DNA from: Candidatus Nitrospira nitrificans
GTDB taxonomy: Bacteria; Nitrospirota; Nitrospiria; Nitrospirales; Nitrospiraceae
DNA: 64,000 bases
Reading direction: 5' to 3'
Assembly (NCBI RefSeq): GCF_001458775.1
Contig: NZ_CZPZ01000031.1
Span: 124,001 to 188,000 of the forward strand
Of this stretch, positions 28,625 to 38,700 are shown piece by piece. The translations under genes were made by a program, and so were the position numbers. The first letter of the stretch is position 1; each line of letters starts with the position of its first letter. The notes beneath the pieces are model-generated. The model saw nothing but the letters and a program-made list of their open reading frames with translations, was not told the origin of the DNA and did not search any database.

Positions 28625-28706
28625 CCGTGTCTCTATCTGCTGAAGCCGTTGCAAACGGTATGGAATCGCCGTACAGTGGTGGCGGAAGTTCACTGAAAAA
28701 ACCGCC

Positions 28707-28937
28707 ATGCCAAAATCAGTCGCTGAATTAGAACAAGAAGCGAGTCGCCTACCGAAGAAGGATCGTGCGGTCGTGGCGCACCATCTCATTGCCAGTATCG
28801 ACCCCGGAGAAGATGTCGATGCGGAAGCGGTCTGGCTGGAGGAGGCTGAACGTCGCTATTAAGCATACAAACAAGGGAAGTTATCAGGCAAACCCGCCGA
28901 GCAAGTTTTTCGCGAAGCCAAATCTAAACTCGGATGA
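28707..28937 (+). pseudogene. Addiction-module antitoxin with an in-frame stop
   Basis: The first frame gives 51 residues (MPKSVAELEQEASRLPKK to EAERRY) and stops at a TAA at 28860-28862. Reading through in the same frame gives AYKQGKLSGKPAEQVFREAKSKLG and ends at 28937, where the full protein would have 76 residues. This matches the TIGR02574-type addiction module component, normally a single chain. A C-to-T change (CAA to TAA) explains it. The gene overlaps the toxin start. Confidence 0.75.
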
Positions 28938-29235
28938 TGACGGCTATCTTTCTTCCTCCTGCTGAGGAGGAAATGATTGCTGCTGCTCAGTACTACCAAC
29001 AACAATCAGCCGGTCTCGGATCGGAATTCCTCACTGAGGTCGAACGGACGGTAGCCGCTGTCCTGGTCCATCCGGAAGTCGCGCCCAAGGTGAAGAAGAG
29101 CTCAGGCGTCAGCTCCTGAAACGGTTTCCATTTGAGATTCTGTATGCGGTTGCCGCTGATGAAGTAGTCATAGTCGCGGTCATGTATCTTCGACGCCGGC
29201 CTGGGTATTGGGAAGATCGGCTCAATTTTTATTAA
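28934..29235 (+). pseudogene. RelE/ParE-type toxin, frameshifted
   Basis: The N-terminal part reads MTAIFLPPAEEEMIAAAQYYQQQ to HPEVAPKV, and then the frame runs out at 29119. In another frame the chain resumes as EELRRQLLKRFPFEILYAV and ends WEDRLNFY at 29235. One missing base near 29090 explains it. The pattern FEILYAV ... VAVMYLRRRPGYW is typical of ParE toxins. Together with the mutated antitoxin the locus is dead. Confidence 0.75.
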
Positions 29236-29381
29236 AGCCGAGCCGAGAAAACATTCTCCACGCCTAAGCTAATCATATTCTGCGTGCCTTTCACCACCTT
29301 AGGTCTTCAAGCAGACCTGCCTCAACGGCGCTGCGTCACCGTCGTTGCGCCTTCGCATCGACTCTTTCGCTTGTTTGATTG

Positions 29382-29397
29382 ATAGCATATATGCTAT
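29382..29397. promoter_or_regulatory. Perfect 16-bp palindrome upstream of the intact TA pair
   Basis: ATAGCATATATGCTAT is a perfect palindrome 18 nt before the toxin start. XRE-type antitoxins usually repress their own operon through such sites, so it is a likely operator overlapping the promoter. Confidence 0.6.
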
Positions 29398-29415
29398 TTT
29401 CTGACGGAAAAGAGG

Positions 29416-29817
29416 ATGATGCATCCCTCAAGTAAGTCGCCACTAACCCGATTGGTCTATGACGGCAGGGTCCTCCGAATTGAGTTTTACGTTGCTCCGA
29501 ATGGCACCGCACCAGCAGAAGACTGGCTCGAACAGCTTTCGGTCGCAGCCCAGCAGAAGTTCGCAGCTCTGTTTGTGCGGATGGGGGACACTGGAAAGAT
29601 CTGGAATGAGCGTAAGTTTAAACATTTGACCGGGACCGATCAGCTCTTCGAGTTTAAAGTCGAGGCTGATCGCATCCTGTGCTTCTTTTTCGTCGGTCGT
29701 CGGCTGATTTTGATGCATGGATTCAGGAAAGCCGTCGACAAAACACCACAACGAGAAATTGATCGAGCTGAAGCGTATAAAAAGGACTTTGAGGGGAGGG
29801 CTCGATATGAAAACTAA
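29416..29817 (+). CDS. HigB-type (Gp49-like) toxin
   Basis: The protein has 133 aa. The pattern RIEFYVAPNGTAPAEDWLEQL, KFKHLTGTDQLFEFKVEADRILCFFFVGRRLILMHGFRKAVDKTPQREIDRAEAYKKDF matches the phage-derived Gp49/HigB toxin family, a RelE-fold mRNA interferase. The His and Arg in LMHGFRK fit. The antitoxin gene follows and overlaps its end by 11 nt. Toxin-first order is usual for this family. The reading frame is complete. Confidence 0.88.
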   Translation: MMHPSSKSPLTRLVYDGRVLRIEFYVAPNGTAPAEDWLEQLSVAAQQKFAALFVRMGDTGKIWNERKFKHLTGTDQLFEFKVEADRILCFFFVGRRLILMHGFRKAVDKTPQREIDRAEAYKKDFEGRARYEN

Positions 29818-30124
29818 AGCTGTGGGAATGGGCAAAGGCTGGTTGGATAGAAAGCTAGTTAGTTCAAAATTCCGCAAAGGATTCGAAGAAGAGCTGCAAA
29901 AGCTGGCCATCGGCGAGCAGCTCGCTCGGCTGCGCCTGGAGGCAGGATTGACCCAAGCGCAAGTGGCGAAACGTACCGGCACCACAGCATCGGCGATCAG
30001 CCGCTACGAAAATGCGGAATACGATCGCTATGAGCTCCGCACGCTGCAAAAGATTGTCCGTGCCTGTGGCGGTCGACTGGAGATTTCCTTAGAGCCAGGA
30101 CCAAAACCCCATCGAGCTGCATAG
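29807..30124 (+). CDS. XRE-family antitoxin
   Basis: The protein has 105 aa from the ATG at 29807, which overlaps the toxin end and follows GAGGGGAGGG. The HTH region IGEQLARLRLEAGLTQAQVAKRTGTTASAISRYENAEY fits the Cro/C1 type. The N-terminal ~35 residues may bind the toxin. Likely autoregulation is through the palindrome at 29382. It converges with the LuxR gene at 30188. Confidence 0.88.
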   Translation: MKTKAVGMGKGWLDRKLVSSKFRKGFEEELQKLAIGEQLARLRLEAGLTQAQVAKRTGTTASAISRYENAEYDRYELRTLQKIVRACGGRLEISLEPGPKPHRAA

Positions 30125-30187
30125 TGCATGGTTTCGTAACTCAATAGTCAGGCCAGCCCTATTGTCCCGTGCCGAGGTTATCTATCC

Positions 30188-31291
30188 TCATTCCCTGCCT
30201 ATGGATTGTGTGGTGCCTGTGACCATTGCCGCGGCAGCGGTTCGGTTCTCCACTCCCAATTTAATATAGATCCGTTCCAGATGTTTCTGAACGGTGCGGC
30301 GGCTGATCCTCAGAATCATGCCGATCTCGGGATTCGTCTTGCCTTGCGTGACCCATCCCAAGATTTCCGACTCCCGAGGGCTCAGCCCAAGGAACTCACA
30401 ATCTCTTGCCACAGGCGTAGTCCTACGTTCTTCGAGAATTAGTAGATACTCTAACCCCTTCACGATCAGCCGGACGGTCAGGCGGCCCGATTCTCCTTGG
30501 ATCAACAAGGGCTGGAGTTCTGGTTGTACATCGTCTGCTCGGGCTAGTTGCCGTTGATAGTGAGTCAGCCAGTCTCTTAAGCGGGTAGGAAGCCGGTTGG
30601 AATCGGATCGCGTTTGAAGCCCGTATTGCTTCAGCAACCTCTGCGCGTATGGTGTAACAAACCGAACGCCTCCGTCTTGGGTCACTAAAATAAGAGCCTG
30701 CTGTCCCTCTTCCATTGCGTGATTCATGGCTGTCAGCTGATGTTGCATCTGAGTGACCGCCAAGGCGTTCTCCAAAGCGCGCTTGAGATGGGAGCGAATG
30801 GCATTCAAGACGGTTTTGGTGGAATCATGAAACTCCTTGCCGTTACGGTGACGACTGATGGACATCAACCGCCCATTTGCGGCCTTCATCCCAAGAAATA
30901 GCAGATAAGACATCTTGAGCGGCTTGTAGAATTCGTTATGTAATACCGTCTTGTGAAATTGATGAGGCGGCACAAAATCTGAAATGATATGGGCCGAATC
31001 ATCTTGAGTGGTGAGCCAATGGGTGACAACCGGATGCTCATGCACGTTCTGTTGGAGCACGGAGGCATAGTGTAAGGGATCGGGGCAGTACGGAAGTTGA
31101 TCGGACTTGTAGAGGATCGTGCCGTCATCCAACATAAATTCGTTGTACGACGTAAAATCACCTTCCGTGATCGCGGGCAATGCCGTGATCACATGATCGG
31201 TGAACTCCTCGTGCGTCCGCAGTTGATACAGATCAAGTAAGAACTCAGATACCTGCCGCAGTTGCTTCCCTGTTAGACGTTCCATCGTCAT
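30188..31291 (-). CDS. LuxR-family transcriptional regulator
   Basis: The protein has 367 aa. The C-terminal GerE/LuxR HTH is LGLSPRESEILGWVTQGKTNPEIGMILRISRRTVQKHLERIYIKLGV. The N-terminal ~250 residues form a mixed sensor region, possibly with GAF/PAS-like parts, as in other large LuxR proteins; I see no receiver phosphorylation site. It is divergent from the secreted cassette and 332 bp away from it, so it may control that cassette. Start is ATG at 31291 or 31285. Confidence 0.85.
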   Translation of the reverse strand: MTMERLTGKQLRQVSEFLLDLYQLRTHEEFTDHVITALPAITEGDFTSYNEFMLDDGTILYKSDQLPYCPDPLHYASVLQQNVHEHPVVTHWLTTQDDSAHIISDFVPPHQFHKTVLHNEFYKPLKMSYLLFLGMKAANGRLMSISRHRNGKEFHDSTKTVLNAIRSHLKRALENALAVTQMQHQLTAMNHAMEEGQQALILVTQDGGVRFVTPYAQRLLKQYGLQTRSDSNRLPTRLRDWLTHYQRQLARADDVQPELQPLLIQGESGRLTVRLIVKGLEYLLILEERRTTPVARDCEFLGLSPRESEILGWVTQGKTNPEIGMILRISRRTVQKHLERIYIKLGVENRTAAAAMVTGTTQSIGRE

Positions 31292-31622
31292 GCTCCGAAC
31301 AAAGATCCGCTATCTTACTTAGTGCAGTAGTATAAGTACAACACCGTACGTTAGGTGGCGTATTTCTAGCACAGCTTCGGTTTGCTACAAGGGTCATTAC
31401 GTATGAATAGGGGCTGGAGCCACAAAGCAGGCATTGCGGAAGGTGAACGGATATCACATGAGACCGGCGTCGGTCTCGTGGAAGATCGACGCTACAGATG
31501 CGAGGTAGTACAGAGGTTCCTCCTGATTGGAAATCGGTATGTTAGCGCGGGGTAACGGCAATAATTCTTGAAAAGACACATATTCTTTGCACAACGTCAC
31601 TTACACAAAGGAGGTTAGCAAA
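31292..31622. other. 331-bp non-coding region between the LuxR gene and the secreted cassette
   Basis: No gene is supported. An inverted repeat TACTTA / TAAGTA (31316-31338) lies 25-47 nt before the LuxR start and could be a regulator site. The region should hold divergent promoters for the LuxR gene and the cassette, but I cannot place them firmly. Confidence 0.45.
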
Positions 31623-32054
31623 ATGAAGTGGCAAATCTTCATGGGGGTCGCGCTGACTGCTCCATCTTATGTTTTTGCCGCAGGAAATACCGTTCCGATT
31701 GACGTTACGGTGGACACTGGCTCTCATACATGTACGAGTATAGGGCAGGATCATAGGGCCTACAGAGATATATATGCAGGCGATGGCCGATATTTCTTTA
31801 AAGAACAGCTTGCCGAAAAAACAAAGTTTGGAGCGGGAAATTGCGAATACAACTCCGACGGCGGAGGAAACGCCTATGAGACAAGAAGCTTTTGTGTGAC
31901 TGATGCCGATGGTGAGAAGGAATGCTCCCAACGATTAGTTAGAGTCATTGTCAGGGCATACGCAGACTGTACAAACAATCCTGGTAAACTTACTTCCAGA
32001 GTTGGCACAGAGTGCCGTTTTACTGCGACATCAAAAAAGGGGAATCCCCAGTAA
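31623..32054 (+). CDS. Small secreted Cys-rich protein, cassette gene 1
   Basis: The protein has 143 aa from the ATG at 31623, preceded by GGAGG. Residues 1-20 (MKWQIFMGVALTAPSYVFAA) are a signal peptide. The mature chain has six Cys in the segments SHTCTS, GNCEYN, RSFCVT, KECSQR, YADCTN and TECRF, so disulphides are likely. It is rich in Thr, Asp and Gly. No family is recognised. It starts the AT-richer cassette. The next gene follows 203 bp later. Confidence 0.75.
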   Translation: MKWQIFMGVALTAPSYVFAAGNTVPIDVTVDTGSHTCTSIGQDHRAYRDIYAGDGRYFFKEQLAEKTKFGAGNCEYNSDGGGNAYETRSFCVTDADGEKECSQRLVRVIVRAYADCTNNPGKLTSRVGTECRFTATSKKGNPQ

Positions 32055-32257
32055 CGCACCTTTCGATAAGAAACATGTTCGGGCAGGGCTGGGAGGCAGA
32101 GCCGTCCCGCTTCTGGCTGTTTCGAAGAACAAACCTGGGCAGGACCGTTGGAAGTTTTCCTGAGGATACGAGTGTCCAAACACCATGACCTACTGGCGAA
32201 AGAAGTAACATGCGAAGTTTATTGATAGATTCAGATAGACATTCTGCTCAAATTCTC

Positions 32258-33619
32258 ATGAAACGATTTTTTTTGTGCCCATGTGCTGTCCTACTGGGCG
32301 CACTCTTAATACTTGCTGAGCCAGCACACGCGCTCATCACAGAGACAACCATTATGTCTGTGGGACTCAGTGAAGTTCGGTCTACCATTGAGTCATTGTT
32401 GGAATCGGCTCGCCAAAAAGGTGACTACTTGCTCATCCGTGCTGTGATTGAGGCGAAGAATGCAATTGATGCCTGGGAAGCTGCGAATAGTAGGCTATTA
32501 GGAGATGCTTTTAAGAAGCTTGACGATACTGCCAAGAAAAACTTCCAACGAATCGAAGGCCTTGTTGATGACATTAATCGAAAAGGAGCAGCCCGATTAG
32601 ATCAGATTCAAGAGCTTGAAAGCTCAGCTGCGCAGATCGTTAGCATGATCACCCCGGATGGAGATCGACCATATATTCTCAAGCAGCGTCCCCGTGTAAT
32701 TTATAGACAAAAAGAGCCAATCCGTATAACTCTCGGCGGTGCCAATCTTGATACAGCCGAAGCGGAGCTCTTGTTGCCAAATTCCTCCGAAGTGATTAGG
32801 CCATCAGGTGATGGAGAAAAGACCAGGTTAGTGTTCGATGTCCCTGTAGACAGATTTATATTCGATAAGGAGAGCTCAAGCTTAAATAAAATTAAATTAA
32901 GTTATCGAAACCCGCGCATCGGTTTCATAGGTCGGGTCGTGGAGACTTTCTCCAGTGCTCCACGTGTGACAAGAGAAATTGCGATTCTGGCACTACCTCT
33001 CAAGGTGGCTGACCTCGAGCTTGTCACAACAATGAAGGTAAAAAGGAAAATACTAAATAGACAAATCGACTGCCCAGGTCATCAGCAATATTCAGATGGG
33101 AAATGTCCGGGAAGAATGTGGGCCGAATCTGAATTCCGAGGGTATGACACAGATCAGGAGCGTGCAATACGACCTGAGGCAGGATGGAAATTTGATCTGG
33201 AAAAGAAGAACGCTTTTAGCTTCGAGCAGTACGGAGAAGGGAGAGGGAATTCATACTGTATCGGCTGGAAACCAAATGAAATCTCGGAAAATGGTCATGT
33301 CTTCAGAGCTCACGTTGGAAGAGAGAGAGCTATCCCAAGAGACAGGGACGGGGTCGTAAATTGCAAAGTCTTAGTCTATGAATATAAAGAGGAAGAAGGC
33401 ACGATGCCTGGACTAAAAGGGCAATCAATTCTTACCTGGGCAGATCCCACAGTTTTCCCACTTCCCCAAAATCTAGAGTCGTTTACCTTAACTGGAAAAG
33501 TATTTGATGGGCGTGGATTTATTCACACCCAAACTGGAGCCAGTGACAAATTCTTTAAGGTCAAAGTCGACAACAATCTTTTCATGGTAATCCCGCAGGT
33601 CCCAGAGGACATATTCTGA
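32258..33619 (+). CDS. Secreted protein with coiled-coil N-terminus, cassette gene 2
   Basis: The protein has 453 aa if the ATG at 32258 starts it; an earlier ATG at 32210 adds a non-signal leader. The signal peptide is MKRFFLCPCAVLLGALLILAEPAHA. Residues ~30-130 are long helices (EVRSTIESLLESARQKGDYLLIRAVIEAKNAIDAW, FKKLDDTAKKNFQRIEGLVDDI), followed by beta-rich segments (IRITLGGANLDTAEAELLLP) and a C-terminal region with three Cys (DCPGH, KCPGR, YCIGW) and VNCKVLV. No catalytic motif or known family is recognised. Base use is visibly richer in A and T than in the flanking core genes. Confidence 0.75.
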   Translation: MKRFFLCPCAVLLGALLILAEPAHALITETTIMSVGLSEVRSTIESLLESARQKGDYLLIRAVIEAKNAIDAWEAANSRLLGDAFKKLDDTAKKNFQRIEGLVDDINRKGAARLDQIQELESSAAQIVSMITPDGDRPYILKQRPRVIYRQKEPIRITLGGANLDTAEAELLLPNSSEVIRPSGDGEKTRLVFDVPVDRFIFDKESSSLNKIKLSYRNPRIGFIGRVVETFSSAPRVTREIAILALPLKVADLELVTTMKVKRKILNRQIDCPGHQQYSDGKCPGRMWAESEFRGYDTDQERAIRPEAGWKFDLEKKNAFSFEQYGEGRGNSYCIGWKPNEISENGHVFRAHVGRERAIPRDRDGVVNCKVLVYEYKEEEGTMPGLKGQSILTWADPTVFPLPQNLESFTLTGKVFDGRGFIHTQTGASDKFFKVKVDNNLFMVIPQVPEDIF

Positions 33620-33717
33620 GAAATCTATAGAGGCGAGTGTTTTGGTTTAATCATGAGCGAGATCTGGAACTCTCTTTCATGCACTATAGGGTCCGCAAGA
33701 AAATAATGAGAGGCGCA

Positions 33718-34683
33718 ATGACAACACATCTCTTGAGAATGACGGTTCTCTTCTTGTCCTATTCGCTCTGTCTACAAGCCAACGCCGAAGATACTGAGAT
33801 AGTTAAACGTGTTTCATTGTGGGAACAGCATGCTCCCTACTGTGACAGCGCTGACGGAACCCGCTCACCTTCCAAAGAGCATTGTGATGACGGTGATACG
33901 ACACTTTTTAATGGATTGCTCTGTGCCGCAGGTGATGTTCGTGGATGTGATGCGGTTCGAAATGCACAAGAGGCATCAGGGCGATGGTATCGATCGCCAC
34001 GGCTCCGTGTCAATCATCACGCGGCTGAAGGCGCGTCCCTCTCACCGGATATGGCACTTGGCGTCCAGCTCTATCTGGTAACTACTCGCGACACTGCACG
34101 GGCATATCAATGGCTCAAACAGATCGACGATACGGTCCCATGCGTGTTGCATAAACTTTTCTCATCCGACTGCTGGATTCGAAGCATCCCACGATTCTGC
34201 CCTGATTCGGCAAATTGCTCCATCCGCCCGGGAGATGCCGAAGTCTTGGCTGCAACAGTCGATTATCTCCACCAACAAGGCATGCCTCCTTTACCGAACG
34301 GTTCACTCCGTGGGTATCTTGGCACATTTGGCTCGACCTGGATTAATGACCACAATGCACATACGAACAAACTGGGGTACTCTCTCCATCTTGTCGCAGT
34401 AGAAGCCTGGTTGCTCAGGCTTATGGGCCATACAACCTCGTCAATCCAGGAAAGTATAATCACTATCAACAAACGTGACCCTGGGAACCCCTTCTTCGAG
34501 TATCTCCGCGATGGTTCGACTCCCCGCGTCCAGGAGATTCTCCTGAACACCTGTCCAAAAGATGTGGCGTCATTGCCTCAGAAGTATTTTCAATGGACTT
34601 GGGAACGAGAAATGAAAGAACAAGCCTGGAAAGAAACCATGCTGTGGGATTGCATCTTCATGGAAAAATTATTAGAAGGATGA
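33718..34683 (+). CDS. Secreted helical protein of unknown family, cassette gene 3
   Basis: The protein has 321 aa from the ATG at 33718, chosen because of AGAGG 5 nt upstream; an ATG at 33706 is close by. The signal peptide is MTTHLLRMTVLFLSYSLCLQANA. The mature chain has Cys in APYCDS, EHCDDGD, LLCAAGDVRGCDA, VPCVLH, SDCWIR, RFCPDS and NCSIR. The middle has a SPDMALGVQLYLVTTRDTARAYQWLKQI helix pair, and HHAAEG / NDHNAHTNKLGYSLHL segments. A helical toroid-like fold is possible. No family is recognised. It lies 98 bp after gene 2. Confidence 0.75.
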   Translation: MTTHLLRMTVLFLSYSLCLQANAEDTEIVKRVSLWEQHAPYCDSADGTRSPSKEHCDDGDTTLFNGLLCAAGDVRGCDAVRNAQEASGRWYRSPRLRVNHHAAEGASLSPDMALGVQLYLVTTRDTARAYQWLKQIDDTVPCVLHKLFSSDCWIRSIPRFCPDSANCSIRPGDAEVLAATVDYLHQQGMPPLPNGSLRGYLGTFGSTWINDHNAHTNKLGYSLHLVAVEAWLLRLMGHTTSSIQESIITINKRDPGNPFFEYLRDGSTPRVQEILLNTCPKDVASLPQKYFQWTWEREMKEQAWKETMLWDCIFMEKLLEG

Positions 34684-35094
34684 TTTTAGCGCGAAAATTG
34701 ATGAAGTTTTTGTTTATCTCCTGAGGTCGTGGCCCAGCGTCAGAAGTCAGTGGGTCGGATCTTGTACTGTGCATTGTGAAAGCCGATAGAATTCTGAGAG
34801 GTGCTTCTCCCCACAGCGGACCAGGTACTCAGAAGTCAGCAATTTGAACGACATCATATCCAGCATCCCTGCCGGTTTCATGGCAGTTTGTGTTGCCTAA
34901 GTTGCTGACTTCTGAGTAATTGGTCTGTGGCGTAGAGCGGCTGACGTATTTAGATAGGATGCCGGCGATGAGGCTTTGGATGAGGCGCTGCCTGAGTTTA
35001 TAGGTCGTTGAATGTTTAAGCGCAGAGGATCTTGTTATCCAACAGCTGTGGCAAGATATTAACCGGGCCGATGTTTCAGTACAGTCAGTCCGTT
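34684..35094. other. 411-bp non-coding region after the cassette
   Basis: No gene is supported. It contains the 107-bp inverted-repeat element at 34819-34925 and an extra copy of the arm core CAGAAGTCAG at 34741-34750. The tail up to the HigA stop (35095) shows nothing else. Confidence 0.5.
34819..34925. repeat. 107-bp inverted-repeat element (MITE-like)
   Basis: ACTCAGAAGTCAGCAA (34827-34842) and TTGCTGACTTCTGAGT (34902-34917) are perfect 16-bp inverted copies. Outside them GACCA (34819) and TGGTC (34921) are also complementary. The interior of ~59 bp has no coding frame. The arrangement resembles a miniature mobile element. Confidence 0.6.
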
Positions 35095-35400
35095 TTATGC
35101 GGGAACAAAAGGCTCGATCTTGATTTTCCGGGCCTGCTTGCGCATCTTGGTGCTGTCATACCAGGCCTGCATCTGGAGCAGCATCTCCATCTTCAGATGA
35201 AAGGCTTTTTCCAGCCGCAACGCCATTTCTGGAGAGAGCGCTGTCTTTTCATGCACCAAGTCGGAAAAGGTGGCCCGGCGCACACCCAGGATGGCACCGG
35301 CCTTGGTGATGCTGAGACCCAGCTCGTCCAGGATTTCTGTTTTGATGAAGCTGCCCGGATGGGAAGGCGACATGCCGATTTTCATGCCTTTTCGTGCCAT
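35095..35400 (-). CDS. higA: HigA-type antitoxin
   Basis: The protein has 101 aa. The sequence MKIGMSPSHPGSFIKTEILDELGLSITKAGAILGVRRATFSDLVHEKTALSPEMALRLEKAFHLKMEMLLQMQAWYD matches the VapI/HigA antidote family with an XRE HTH. It is intact. The higB gene precedes it on the minus strand and their ends overlap by one base (TAATG). Confidence 0.9.
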   Translation of the reverse strand: MARKGMKIGMSPSHPGSFIKTEILDELGLSITKAGAILGVRRATFSDLVHEKTALSPEMALRLEKAFHLKMEMLLQMQAWYDSTKMRKQARKIKIEPFVPA

Positions 35401-35691
35401 TAGTGATAGTCCTCCAAATCCAAGTCATCCACATACCCATTCTCCTCCGCAAACGTGATCCGCCAGTTGCCGGAGGTTGAAATGCTCCATGCCCCTTTAC
35501 GGTCGCCCGAGAGCTGATGCACCCACCAGCCGGGAGGGGCACTTTCCCGAAACACTCGCATATCCTCGGCGACAATCAAGGCCTATCAGGATATTCCGTA
35601 TCCGGTTCACCAGGTCGGCCCGTAGTTCTTTGATCTGATCGCTCTCAAGCAGACGCTTGAGTCCCCGGTGGCGCACGGATCGAATGATCAT
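35400..35691 (-). pseudogene. higB: HigB toxin gene with one extra base
   Basis: The chain starts MIIRSVRHRGLKRLLESDQIKELR and runs to RIRNILI at about 35585. One extra G near 35582 breaks the frame; the rest continues as ALIVAEDMRVF, PPGWWVHQLSGDRKGAWSIS and GNWRITFAEENGYVDDLDLEDYH in the next frame, ending at the TAA at 35400. The joined chain fits HigB (RelE fold) in length and order. It may be a true inactivation, or an error. higA beside it is intact. Confidence 0.8.
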
Positions 35692-35702
35692 CTGTTTTCA
35701 GA

Positions 35703-35719
35703 GTACGGTATAGGCGTAC
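35703..35719. promoter_or_regulatory. Candidate higBA operator
   Basis: GTACG and CGTAC are complementary around a 7-nt core, 12-28 nt before the higB start. The core contains a TATA-like sequence. The site is weakly supported. Confidence 0.3.
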
Positions 35720-35897
35720 GTGTCTGCAAGAAACTTGTGTTCTCGAAAGCAGGTAAGGTCGCGTCTTGCAATCGGAACGGTTGGTTGGAGTTCTGATGAC
35801 CGCGGTTCGCTCTCAAACGGGGGCCGTTACGTTGGCAACGGTTTCACGGTTTCAATCGATGTTGAGGAGCTTGACGGGGAGTCCGAGGGCAGTTGCC

Positions 35898-36134
35898 TCA
35901 ACTCGCCTTCTTCTGTTCTTCCTTCAATCGCTCGGCGATCCACAGCTTGATCACCGATTGTCTGGTGACGCCTAGACGGCTTGCCTGAGCATCCAGTGAT
36001 TCGATGATCCAACTGGGAAAATCCACATTCACTCGTCTCTGTTCATGCCCAGGACGGCGCGCTCTAGAAAGATCAAGATAAGGCGTCACGCCTTTCCCCT
36101 CATCGAACATCTTCTCGAGATTCTTGGCTTTCAT
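35898..36134 (-). CDS. CopG/BrnA-type antitoxin without a toxin partner
   Basis: The protein has 78 aa. RVNVDFPSWIIESLDAQASRLGVTRQSVIKLWIAERLKEEQ is a ribbon-helix-helix domain. The N-terminal half (LEKMFDEGKGVTPYLDLSRARRPG) resembles BrnA antitoxins. No BrnT gene lies beside it; the 90 bp upstream have no intact frame. It is therefore an orphan, or a former pair. Confidence 0.8.
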   Translation of the reverse strand: MKAKNLEKMFDEGKGVTPYLDLSRARRPGHEQRRVNVDFPSWIIESLDAQASRLGVTRQSVIKLWIAERLKEEQKKAS

Positions 36135-36227
36135 GATAGAGTTCCCCGCAACATCGAACTCAACATACCCATCCTTGTAGAAAATATACCTGCGGAGAGT
36201 TCGTCAATCCAAGAGGATTCAACACTC

Positions 36228-37040
36228 TCAACCTTCGCAACCAGCCTTCGCAGCTCGTTTCCATCCTGAAAGCACACAGCGTTGCGCGATGAGCGGGGTG
36301 AATCGGGTAATGTCTTGCGCGATGTCGGTCATGAATCGGTTGGCGAGGGACTGATCCTCGAAACATTCGTACACGTCGTCGAGAAAGCCGCCACGGAGCA
36401 GCGGGTGATGGAGAAACTCCTGACCGGCGCCAGTTTTTACTTCAAGCGGATACTCGATGGCCTCGACTCGTTCAAGATCGAGTCGTTCAAGCCAACTTCG
36501 TCCGTCCCGCGCCGATGGTCGTTCGAGCAGATAGTCCTGGAATCGCTCTCGCTCGCTGATCAGCCCTTGTCGGGTCATCGCTTGATCCACTCGCTGCCAC
36601 AGTGAATCGAATGTGCCGGAGGACGGAAAGGTCAGGACGAGCTGACCGTCCGGATTGAGATGGTCCACAAGTCCACGGACGGCCTCAAATCGATTGGGGC
36701 GAAAGAACATGACGGAGAGATTGCCTGTGATGCGATCAAATGTCGGCAGCGCGGGAGGCAGGGAACGCATATCCGCACATTCGAATCGAAGCCATGGCAA
36801 TTGCGAGCCCTGAACGGCTCTTGCACGAGCCACCTGACCGGCGCTCGCATCGATCGCCAGCACCGCACCGGTCGGACCGACTTGTTCAGCGAGATAAAAG
36901 GCCGGAATGCCGTGGCCGGATGCGACATCCAGGATCCGTAGACCGGGTCGAAGGTCCAGGTGCTGGAGTAACGAATGCGCGAACGGCGTGGACCAATAGT
37001 CGTGCTTGGGAAGAGGCCAGCGGAGCGTGTGGTCGTTCAT
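36228..37040 (-). CDS. SAM-dependent methyltransferase (class I)
   Basis: The protein has 270 aa from the ATG at 37040. Motif I is ILDVASGHGIPAFYLAEQVG (residues ~31-50), then VLAIDASAGQV, and FDRITGNLSVMFF as the post-motif strand. It lies 13 nt after the phosphoglucomutase stop, in the same direction. The substrate is unknown; UbiE-like small-molecule or quinone substrates are possible. The C-terminal third is specific to this protein. Confidence 0.85.
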   Translation of the reverse strand: MNDHTLRWPLPKHDYWSTPFAHSLLQHLDLRPGLRILDVASGHGIPAFYLAEQVGPTGAVLAIDASAGQVARARAVQGSQLPWLRFECADMRSLPPALPTFDRITGNLSVMFFRPNRFEAVRGLVDHLNPDGQLVLTFPSSGTFDSLWQRVDQAMTRQGLISERERFQDYLLERPSARDGRSWLERLDLERVEAIEYPLEVKTGAGQEFLHHPLLRGGFLDDVYECFEDQSLANRFMTDIAQDITRFTPLIAQRCVLSGWKRAAKAGCEG

Positions 37041-37053
37041 GAAACAAGCGGCA

Positions 37054-38700
37054 TCACATGGCGGCCGCCAGCGCGCTGGAAACGATTGCCTGAGCTTCAT
37101 CCTGGATCTTCTTGAGATGTTCCTTCCCTTTGAAACTCTCGGCGTAGAGCTTGTACACGTCTTCGGTCCCGGACGGTCTGGCGGCAAACCAGCCATTTCC
37201 GGTCACGACTTTCAAGCCGCCGATCGCCGCGCCGTTGCCTGGAGCCTTGGTGAGCATCGCCACGATCTTGTCGCCGGCAAGCTCCGATGCCTTCACTTGC
37301 TCGGGCGAAAGTTTGGAGAGAATGGCTTTCTGCTCCGGCGTGGCCGGGGCGTCGATCCGTTCATAGACCGGCTCGCCCAGCTCGTTCGTGAGGGCTCGGT
37401 ACAACTCGGATGGATCAAGGCCGGTCTTGGCCGTCATTTCGGCAGCCAGCAGGTCCATGATGATGCCGTCCTTATCAGTCGACCAGACTGTTCCATCGCG
37501 TCGTAAGAACGAGGCGCCGGCGCTTTCCTCGCCGCCGAAACCAAGCGAGCCATCGAGCAGACCGCTGACGAACCACTTGAAGCCTACCGGCACTTCCACC
37601 AGTTTCTGTTTCAGTTTGGCCGCGACTCGGTCGATCAAGCTGCTGCTGACCAAGGTCTTGCCGATCCCGGCGTCGGATTTCCAGCCGGGCCGACTGGCAA
37701 AGAGGTAGGCAATCGAGACGGCCAGGTAATGGTTCGGATTCATCAAACCTGAACGAGTGACGATTCCGTGCCGATCGTTGTCGGCATCATTGCCGAAAGC
37801 CACGTCAAAGCGATCTTTGAGCGCGATCAGATTCGCCATGGCATAGGGAGACGAACAGTCCATGCGGATCTTGCCGTCCCAATCCAAGGGCATGAAGCGA
37901 AAGGTTGGATCGACTGCTGGGTTCACAATCTCTATAGGAATCCCATATCGCTCGACAATCGGCTGCCAGTAGGCTGCACCGGATCCGCCGAGGGGGTCGA
38001 TCCCAAGCTTGAGCGCCGCGGCTTTGATGGTGTCCATATCAATCACATGACTCAGATCACTCACATAGGCCCCGATATAGTCGTGCGGATGTGTGGTTGA
38101 TGCGCGTCTGGCCTGTTCAACCGGAAGACGTTTGACTCCTTGGAGTTCGGTGGCGAGAAGAGCGTTGGCTCGATCTTCGATCCACTTCGTAATCTGTGTA
38201 TCGGCCGGCCCCCCGCTCGGCGGGTTGTACTTGATGCCGCCGTCTTCCGGCGGGTTGTGCGATGGCGTGATGACGATGCCATCCGCCAAGCCGGAGGTTC
38301 GGCCATGGTTGTAGGTGAGAATGGCGTGCGAGATGACCGGGGTCGGTGTGAAGCCCCCGTCCTTGTCTATGATGACTTCAACACCATTGGCGGCAAGGAC
38401 CTCAAGAGCAGTGACAAAGGCCGGCTCCGACAGCGCATGCGTGTCTTTCCCCAAATACAGCGGCCCGGTCGTGCGCTGTGCGACCCGGTATTCGCAAATT
38501 GCCTGAGCAATGGCCACGAGATGATTCTCATTGAAGCTTCGCTTGAATGAGGAGCCACGATGCCCTGATGTGCCGAATGATACTCGCTGTTCTCGAACCG
38601 AGACATCCGGTTTCTCAGTCCAGTATGCGGATAAAAGTTTCTCTACATCCACCAGGATTGAGTGGGGCGCCGGTCGGCCTGCAAGAGTATGAATAGCCAT
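37054..38700 (-). CDS. pgm: Phosphoglucomutase Pgm
   Basis: The protein has 548 aa from the ATG at 38700, close to the E. coli Pgm length of 546. The phosphoserine loop [21 protein letters not shown], the Mg loop [11 protein letters not shown] and the sugar loop [11 protein letters not shown] are present. It interconverts glucose 1-phosphate and glucose 6-phosphate for glycogen and cell-envelope synthesis. The methyltransferase gene follows downstream. Confidence 0.95.

Follow-up and report, generated by a model that had tools for sequence, protein, structure and literature searches.

Acquired cargo in a Nitrospira insertion hotspot: a mobile, predicted exported protein and its changing neighbours

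What do three consecutive genes for putative secreted proteins without a known family do in the genome of a nitrifying Nitrospira, and do the three belong together? They lie in a window of 64 kb (the whole stretch of DNA analysed, from contig C31 of genome G000), in which the original prediction had described an AT-rich cassette of three cysteine-containing proteins beside a divergent LuxR regulator, bracketed by toxin-antitoxin loci, acquired as one system and serving perhaps an envelope or antagonistic function.

The cassette and the junction that holds it

The ORF positions, the divergence of LuxR and the AT-richness were all recovered in our analysis (Table 1). The three genes are called here A (143 aa), B (453-469 aa) and C (321 aa). 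Signal peptides were assessed from hydropathy and by eye, and all three N-termini, as claimed, look like signal peptides, in that a hydrophobic stretch leads into an end resembling a signal-peptidase site. Gene A is preceded by a strong Shine-Dalgarno ribosome-binding site, AAAGGAGG. The likely start of gene B is the ATG at 32258, where its signal peptide begins, although the longer listed start at 32210 is possible. Gene C starts most likely at 33718, which has GAGAGG just 5' of it and gives the cleanest signal peptide; the longer listed start, a GTG at 33637 that adds a charged leader, is possible. The mature proteins contain 6 (A), 4 (B) and 10 (C) cysteines, so that the "several cysteines" of the original prediction describe A and C best and B less well.

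Table 1. Features of the island and of its right-hand border, in window positions
Feature	Position	Strand	Remarks
Island	28625..36227	.	7.6 kb, exactly between convergent lipA (ends 28624) and class I methyltransferase gene
Truncated ParE-like toxin ORF, remnant	28934..29119	+	61 aa, PF05016 E 0.064
HigB/Gp49-like toxin, complete	29416..29817	+	PF05973 E 8e-14
HigA-like HTH antitoxin	29717..30124	+	PF13560 E 5e-13; overlaps HigB-like toxin ORF
LuxR-type regulator, divergent from cassette	30188..31291	-	GerE PF00196 E 2.6e-18
Gene A	31623..32054	+	Orphan, predicted secreted protein, 143 aa, 6 Cys in mature part
Gene B	32210..33619	+	Predicted secreted; predicted helical N-terminal part and two beta-rich parts
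Gene C	33718..34683	+	Predicted secreted, disulfide-rich, alpha/alpha-toroid; conserved cassette member
Lone HigA/Xre-like antitoxin ORF	35095..35400	-	PF01381 E 9.5e-6
CopG-type antitoxin-like ORF	35898..36134	-	PF12441 E 1.3e-4, below curated cut-off
Class I methyltransferase gene	36228-37196	-	Right-hand island border

Composition was compared as the original prediction had proposed, with a result in its favour. GC content is 47.3% across 31623-34683 versus 55.8% in the whole window, the lowest-GC 3-kb stretch of the window begins at about 30750 and overlaps the cassette, and GC3 is 0.43, 0.43 and 0.49 in the three genes versus 0.65-0.67 in the flanking core genes, lipA and a phosphoglucomutase gene. 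A scan of the region for promoter- and terminator-like sites found them at chance level only.

In three relatives (G007, L043; G004, L045; G006, L046) the lipA and methyltransferase genes are convergent and abut or overlap each other, leaving the junction empty, and in a fourth (G012, L042) the same junction carries a different cargo of 8.3 kb, with a patatin-like phospholipase gene (PF01734, E 7e-19) and toxin-antitoxin-like genes. The cassette is therefore one of several alternative cargos, and in Nitrospira the junction of lipA and the methyltransferase gene is a hotspot of insertion. That the cassette was acquired is supported by this empty junction, by its base composition and by relatives carried by plasmids, prophages and a mobile-looking element, described below.

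Toxin-antitoxin genes are indeed present on both sides, but some are remnants or stand alone: on the left a truncated ParE-like ORF and a complete HigB/HTH pair, on the right a HigA-like and a CopG-like ORF. A 99-aa ORF whose start is similar to that of the truncated ParE-like ORF is found at the same place in G012 (L042 2920-3219), and ORFs similar to the lone HigA/Xre-like one occur in the G012 junction and in an element of another Nitrospirota genome (G447, L032). Since the G012 junction combines other cargo with toxin-antitoxin-like genes, these brackets are part of the hotspot and not of the cassette.

The neighbouring LuxR regulator would probably control the cassette. The cassette of Nitrospira sp. 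ACE_NIT7 (NIT7, G069), a relative of the same genus, has three LuxR genes beside it, 35-37% identical to the LuxR of the window. We rejected LuxR as an obligate part of the cassette: such genes are common in Nitrospira, and the genome with the closest relative (G022) has no cassette adjoining it. There (L041 6123-11050) the closest LuxR relatives (64% and 39%) stand in tandem beside fatty-acid desaturase and methyltransferase genes, possibly a small signalling module.

Gene C and its changing neighbours

The original prediction held that the three proteins match no known family, and the profile searches that it had proposed agree: A, B and C have no curated match in Pfam, NCBIfam, PHROGs or PADLOC, and protein D, introduced below, has no usable match in these libraries. 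In particular, none of the four matched a PADLOC model of known anti-phage defence, and no window protein matched a phage structural or lysis profile in PHROGs better than E 0.05. Searches of PDB sequences with B and C, of annotated phages with C, prophage C and Klebsiella B, and of viral contigs with a B profile gave no match.

Relatives were sought in Nitrospirota in several searches, each of 146-395 genomes of the group, in overlapping sets. Adjacent B and C were found in one other genome only, that of NIT7, in the same order and orientation as in the window; B is 25% and C 69-72% identical between the two, and a third predicted secreted gene, D, lies 3' of the pair. Gene A has no relative in 146 Nitrospirota genomes (none in the 145 related genomes searched), in plasmids or in viral contigs. 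Comparisons of A with the D and B profiles, and of D with B, gave no relation. The expectation that the three genes are kept together elsewhere therefore fails, A being without relatives and the third member next to B-C in NIT7 being D; "three-gene system" should be replaced by C with variable partners, here B and perhaps A.

It might be asked whether A, B and C are simply unrelated passengers without a joint function, caught by an integration hotspot that is rich in toxin-antitoxin genes. The orphan status of A, the chance level of promoter- and terminator-like sites and the intergenic gaps of about 100-200 bp all fit this explanation, and the linkage of B and C rests on two genomes, which counts against a joint system. 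However, NIT7 retains B and C in this order although the sequences have diverged deeply, C is conserved (69% identity with silent sites saturated) and secreted neighbours recur, and we consider mere passengers quite unlikely.

Beyond the two cassettes, C occurs by itself in two Nitrospirota genomes. In G059 it forms part of a 696-aa protein with a coiled-coil extension (L008 2567-4657); in G447 it lies in a mobile-looking Nitrospiraceae element, together with genes for a transglycosylase and a HigA-like protein. The gene before it there encodes a 130-aa protein whose N-terminus is hydrophobic and for which comparison with D gave no relation. Four proteobacterial plasmids carry it as well, in Rhizobium leguminosarum (39% identical), Paraburkholderia (37%), Roseomonas mucosa (35%) and Sinorhizobium medicae (27%), and so do four IMG/VR contigs, which represent two kinds of prophage. 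In one of these C lies between a baseplate-hub/tail gene gpD (PF05954, E 4e-17), which it follows, and a DUF4403 gene. In the three others, which are related, C has genes for Mom DNA modification and for ParB-like proteins as neighbours and terminates in a glycine zipper; the C-terminal part of prophage C matches only tape-measure PHROG profiles, and these weakly (E 0.002). The neighbour of C on the Paraburkholderia plasmid is another D protein, and D is also found on Thauera and Burkholderia plasmids. A DUF4403 gene adjoins C again on Rhizobium plasmid pRlX5 (E 5e-64). C is thus usually found beside some predicted secreted gene, whether B, D, a DUF4403 gene or others and, as it recurs on plasmids, prophages and elements with differing neighbours, C is the shared member while the neighbours vary.

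Two details of these loci may be added. The C fusion of G059 adjoins an apparent SOS mutagenesis (UmuC/UmuD-like) gene cluster. In two prophages (L018 3805-6515, L020 3990-6524) the Mom gene (PF25680, E 8.5e-54) is on the strand opposite to the adjoining C relative.

DUF4403 proteins are predicted to be BPI-like tubular (TULIP) lipid-binding proteins at the outer membrane (PMC6791001); they are absent from the window cassette and would be partners of C, not homologues. Their presence suggests an explanation in which C and its partners remodel or protect the envelope or a surface polymer of their own cell, by lysogenic conversion or from a plasmid, for example against the access of phages or predators. 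The position of one prophage C directly after gpD, a typical site of accessory genes, and its carriage as plasmid cargo are consistent with such a role. However, the window cassette has no polymer gene cluster next to it, DUF4403 is found in only 2 of about 10 loci, and a DUF4403 identity of the Roseomonas neighbour of C was not supported; we regard this explanation as possible but somewhat unlikely.

Partner B has a different distribution. Besides NIT7, its relatives are found on 72 Klebsiella/Raoultella plasmid records, on a Bradyrhizobium plasmid (a fragmentary copy) and, alone, in one further Nitrospirota genome (G373); coverage of the query reaches 80% or more in 25-26 of all matched records, and many are truncated at the N-terminus. 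No relative of C was found within 6-10 kb of Klebsiella B in the four loci read. Between the window and NIT7, B has accumulated about 0.97 nonsynonymous changes per site versus about 0.25 for C, suggesting faster evolution of B or its replacement. Each of the two Nitrospira B proteins gives a better score with Klebsiella B than with the other. We therefore considered a swap of B between species, but the tree joining the two Nitrospira proteins was disfavoured and not rejected (AU p 0.08). Most of the Klebsiella/Raoultella plasmids (Klebsiella loci L016, L022, L025) are typed as conjugative, and many of their B copies, which are missing the N-terminal third, have a degraded look.

The divergence of B, far greater than that of C (25% versus 69% identity between the two Nitrospira cassettes), also bears on antagonism, the other function named by the original prediction. 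C might be a secreted antagonistic protein, either a toxin-like enzyme or membrane-active, whose neighbours serve delivery, targeting or immunity in a competition cassette. The mobile contexts of C, the glycine-zipper tail of the prophage proteins and the change of partner genes from locus to locus could all be read in this way. However, no toxin, immunity or defence family was matched in Pfam, NCBIfam, PHROGs or PADLOC, no small immunity-like gene is conserved (A and D are not detectably related), and the beta-rich partners are themselves predicted to be exported, making antagonism unlikely in our judgement.

Conserved residues and predicted fold of gene C

Across ten C sequences eight cysteines are invariant (C42, C56, C69, C77, C161, C167, C279 and C312), together with ten polar residues (D58, D60, R92, S109, D111, D125, D173, H224, N257 and E296). 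This pattern is consistent with a protein that lies outside the cytoplasm, is oxidised and contains a functional site. That C is exported, being either periplasmic or secreted, is predicted from its sequence with moderate confidence.

Structure prediction, also proposed originally, gave a moderate model for C, which resembles toroid enzymes, and little for B. The AlphaFold2 model of C, based on an alignment of 4 sequences, is all helical, with pLDDT 62 and pTM 0.71, and 118 of 321 residues are below 50. That of B is poor (pLDDT 42), usable only for the order of its elements, long helices followed by two beta-rich parts, and its fold matches were therefore not used beyond the helices and Ig-like beta parts.

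Foldseek gave no significant match to the C model (best E 0.23), and nothing significant was found in a viral structure library. In a second look with VIA-align the top 50 matches were mostly alpha/alpha-toroid enzymes such as GH105, GH88, GH8 and GH9; the top matches have Z of 7.9-9.5 over 224-275 residues, at an rmsd of 4-7 A and with a moderate model, and values in the range of 8-9.5 may reflect nothing beyond a shared helical arrangement. In toroid enzymes the face formed by the helix N-termini holds the active site. All ten invariant polar residues of C fall within windows at predicted helix N-termini, versus 39% expected, a placement matched by about 8 in 100,000 randomly drawn sets of polar residues (simulated chance 8e-5). 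The richness of the matches in toroids and the placement of these residues point to a toroid fold, to an enzyme and to a glycan substrate, with decreasing confidence: C probably adopts the toroid fold, is on balance slightly more apt to be an enzyme than not, and its action on a glycan is a lead that we hold with some doubt. Counting against a plain hydrolase are the long C-terminal extensions, coiled-coil or glycine-zipper, of the G059 and prophage proteins, which such an enzyme would not need.

Glycosidases and lyases are the commonest toroid matches, but terpene cyclases and other non-glycan enzymes are in the same list, and linalool dehydratase-isomerase (Ldi, Z 8.0-8.3) and the terpene cyclases are tied with the glycosidases. 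C could accordingly be imagined as a toroid enzyme of small-molecule or isoprenoid metabolism, for which the lipid-binding DUF4403 partners handle a hydrophobic substrate; drimenol synthase and squalene-hopene cyclases are also among its structural matches. However, C has no match to the Ldi family in Pfam or NCBIfam nor to the other families in Pfam, and no terpene pathway genes lie nearby, so that we find this explanation improbable. Sequence relation to the glycoside hydrolases was likewise not detected, as C and two relatives matched none of GH105, GH88, GH8 and GH9 (hmmscan against Pfam-A, E up to 1). C is like these six-hairpin enzymes in its predicted all-helical toroid of about 300 residues and in conserved acidic residues at helix N-termini, but unlike them it has eight invariant cysteines and a C-D-D-G-D motif.

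Possible roles of the cassette

The explanation that we favour, though tentatively, is that the cassette reached a Nitrospira insertion hotspot by horizontal transfer, as cargo with C at its core, an exported toroid enzyme with exchangeable partners. C would be held by about four conserved disulfides and act, in the periplasm or outside the cell, on a glycan or on some other polymer of the envelope or the extracellular space. Its transfer between bacteria would rely on plasmids, prophages and integrative elements, and its secreted partners would change: B, with its long helices and beta-sandwich-like parts, is perhaps a binding or presenting protein, and the others would be a tubular lipid-binding protein (DUF4403) or small cysteine-containing proteins (A, D). 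Antagonism, protection and envelope change are all possible roles.

As island cargo the cassette is ordinary; its core is unusual, being an undescribed, widely mobile family of predicted exported proteins whose secreted partners change. It resembles prophage morons and polymorphic cassettes in being mobile cargo, with a constant core and variable neighbours, at a hotspot, but differs from them in that no recognised toxin, immunity or delivery domain is present here. It is conceivable, if rather speculative, that C founds an undescribed mobile family of exported toroid enzymes, in which a constant C and exchanged partners form a polymorphic extracellular system for conflict or surface alteration in Nitrospirota and Proteobacteria.

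If C is such an enzyme, it names a predicted mobile exported family that has no entry in current libraries, and its eight cysteines and ten candidate functional residues offer a concrete target for studying the effects of mobile elements on the cell surface or on neighbours. Soil bacteria, plant-associated bacteria and others carry it on plasmids and in prophages, while partner B is also present on clinical Klebsiella plasmids. Among the plasmids with C, the conjugative one of Sinorhizobium (L014 4334-7845) has a type IV coupling-protein gene directly followed by genes for two predicted exported proteins, one of 1025 aa that belongs to no family and one of 145 aa, and then C.
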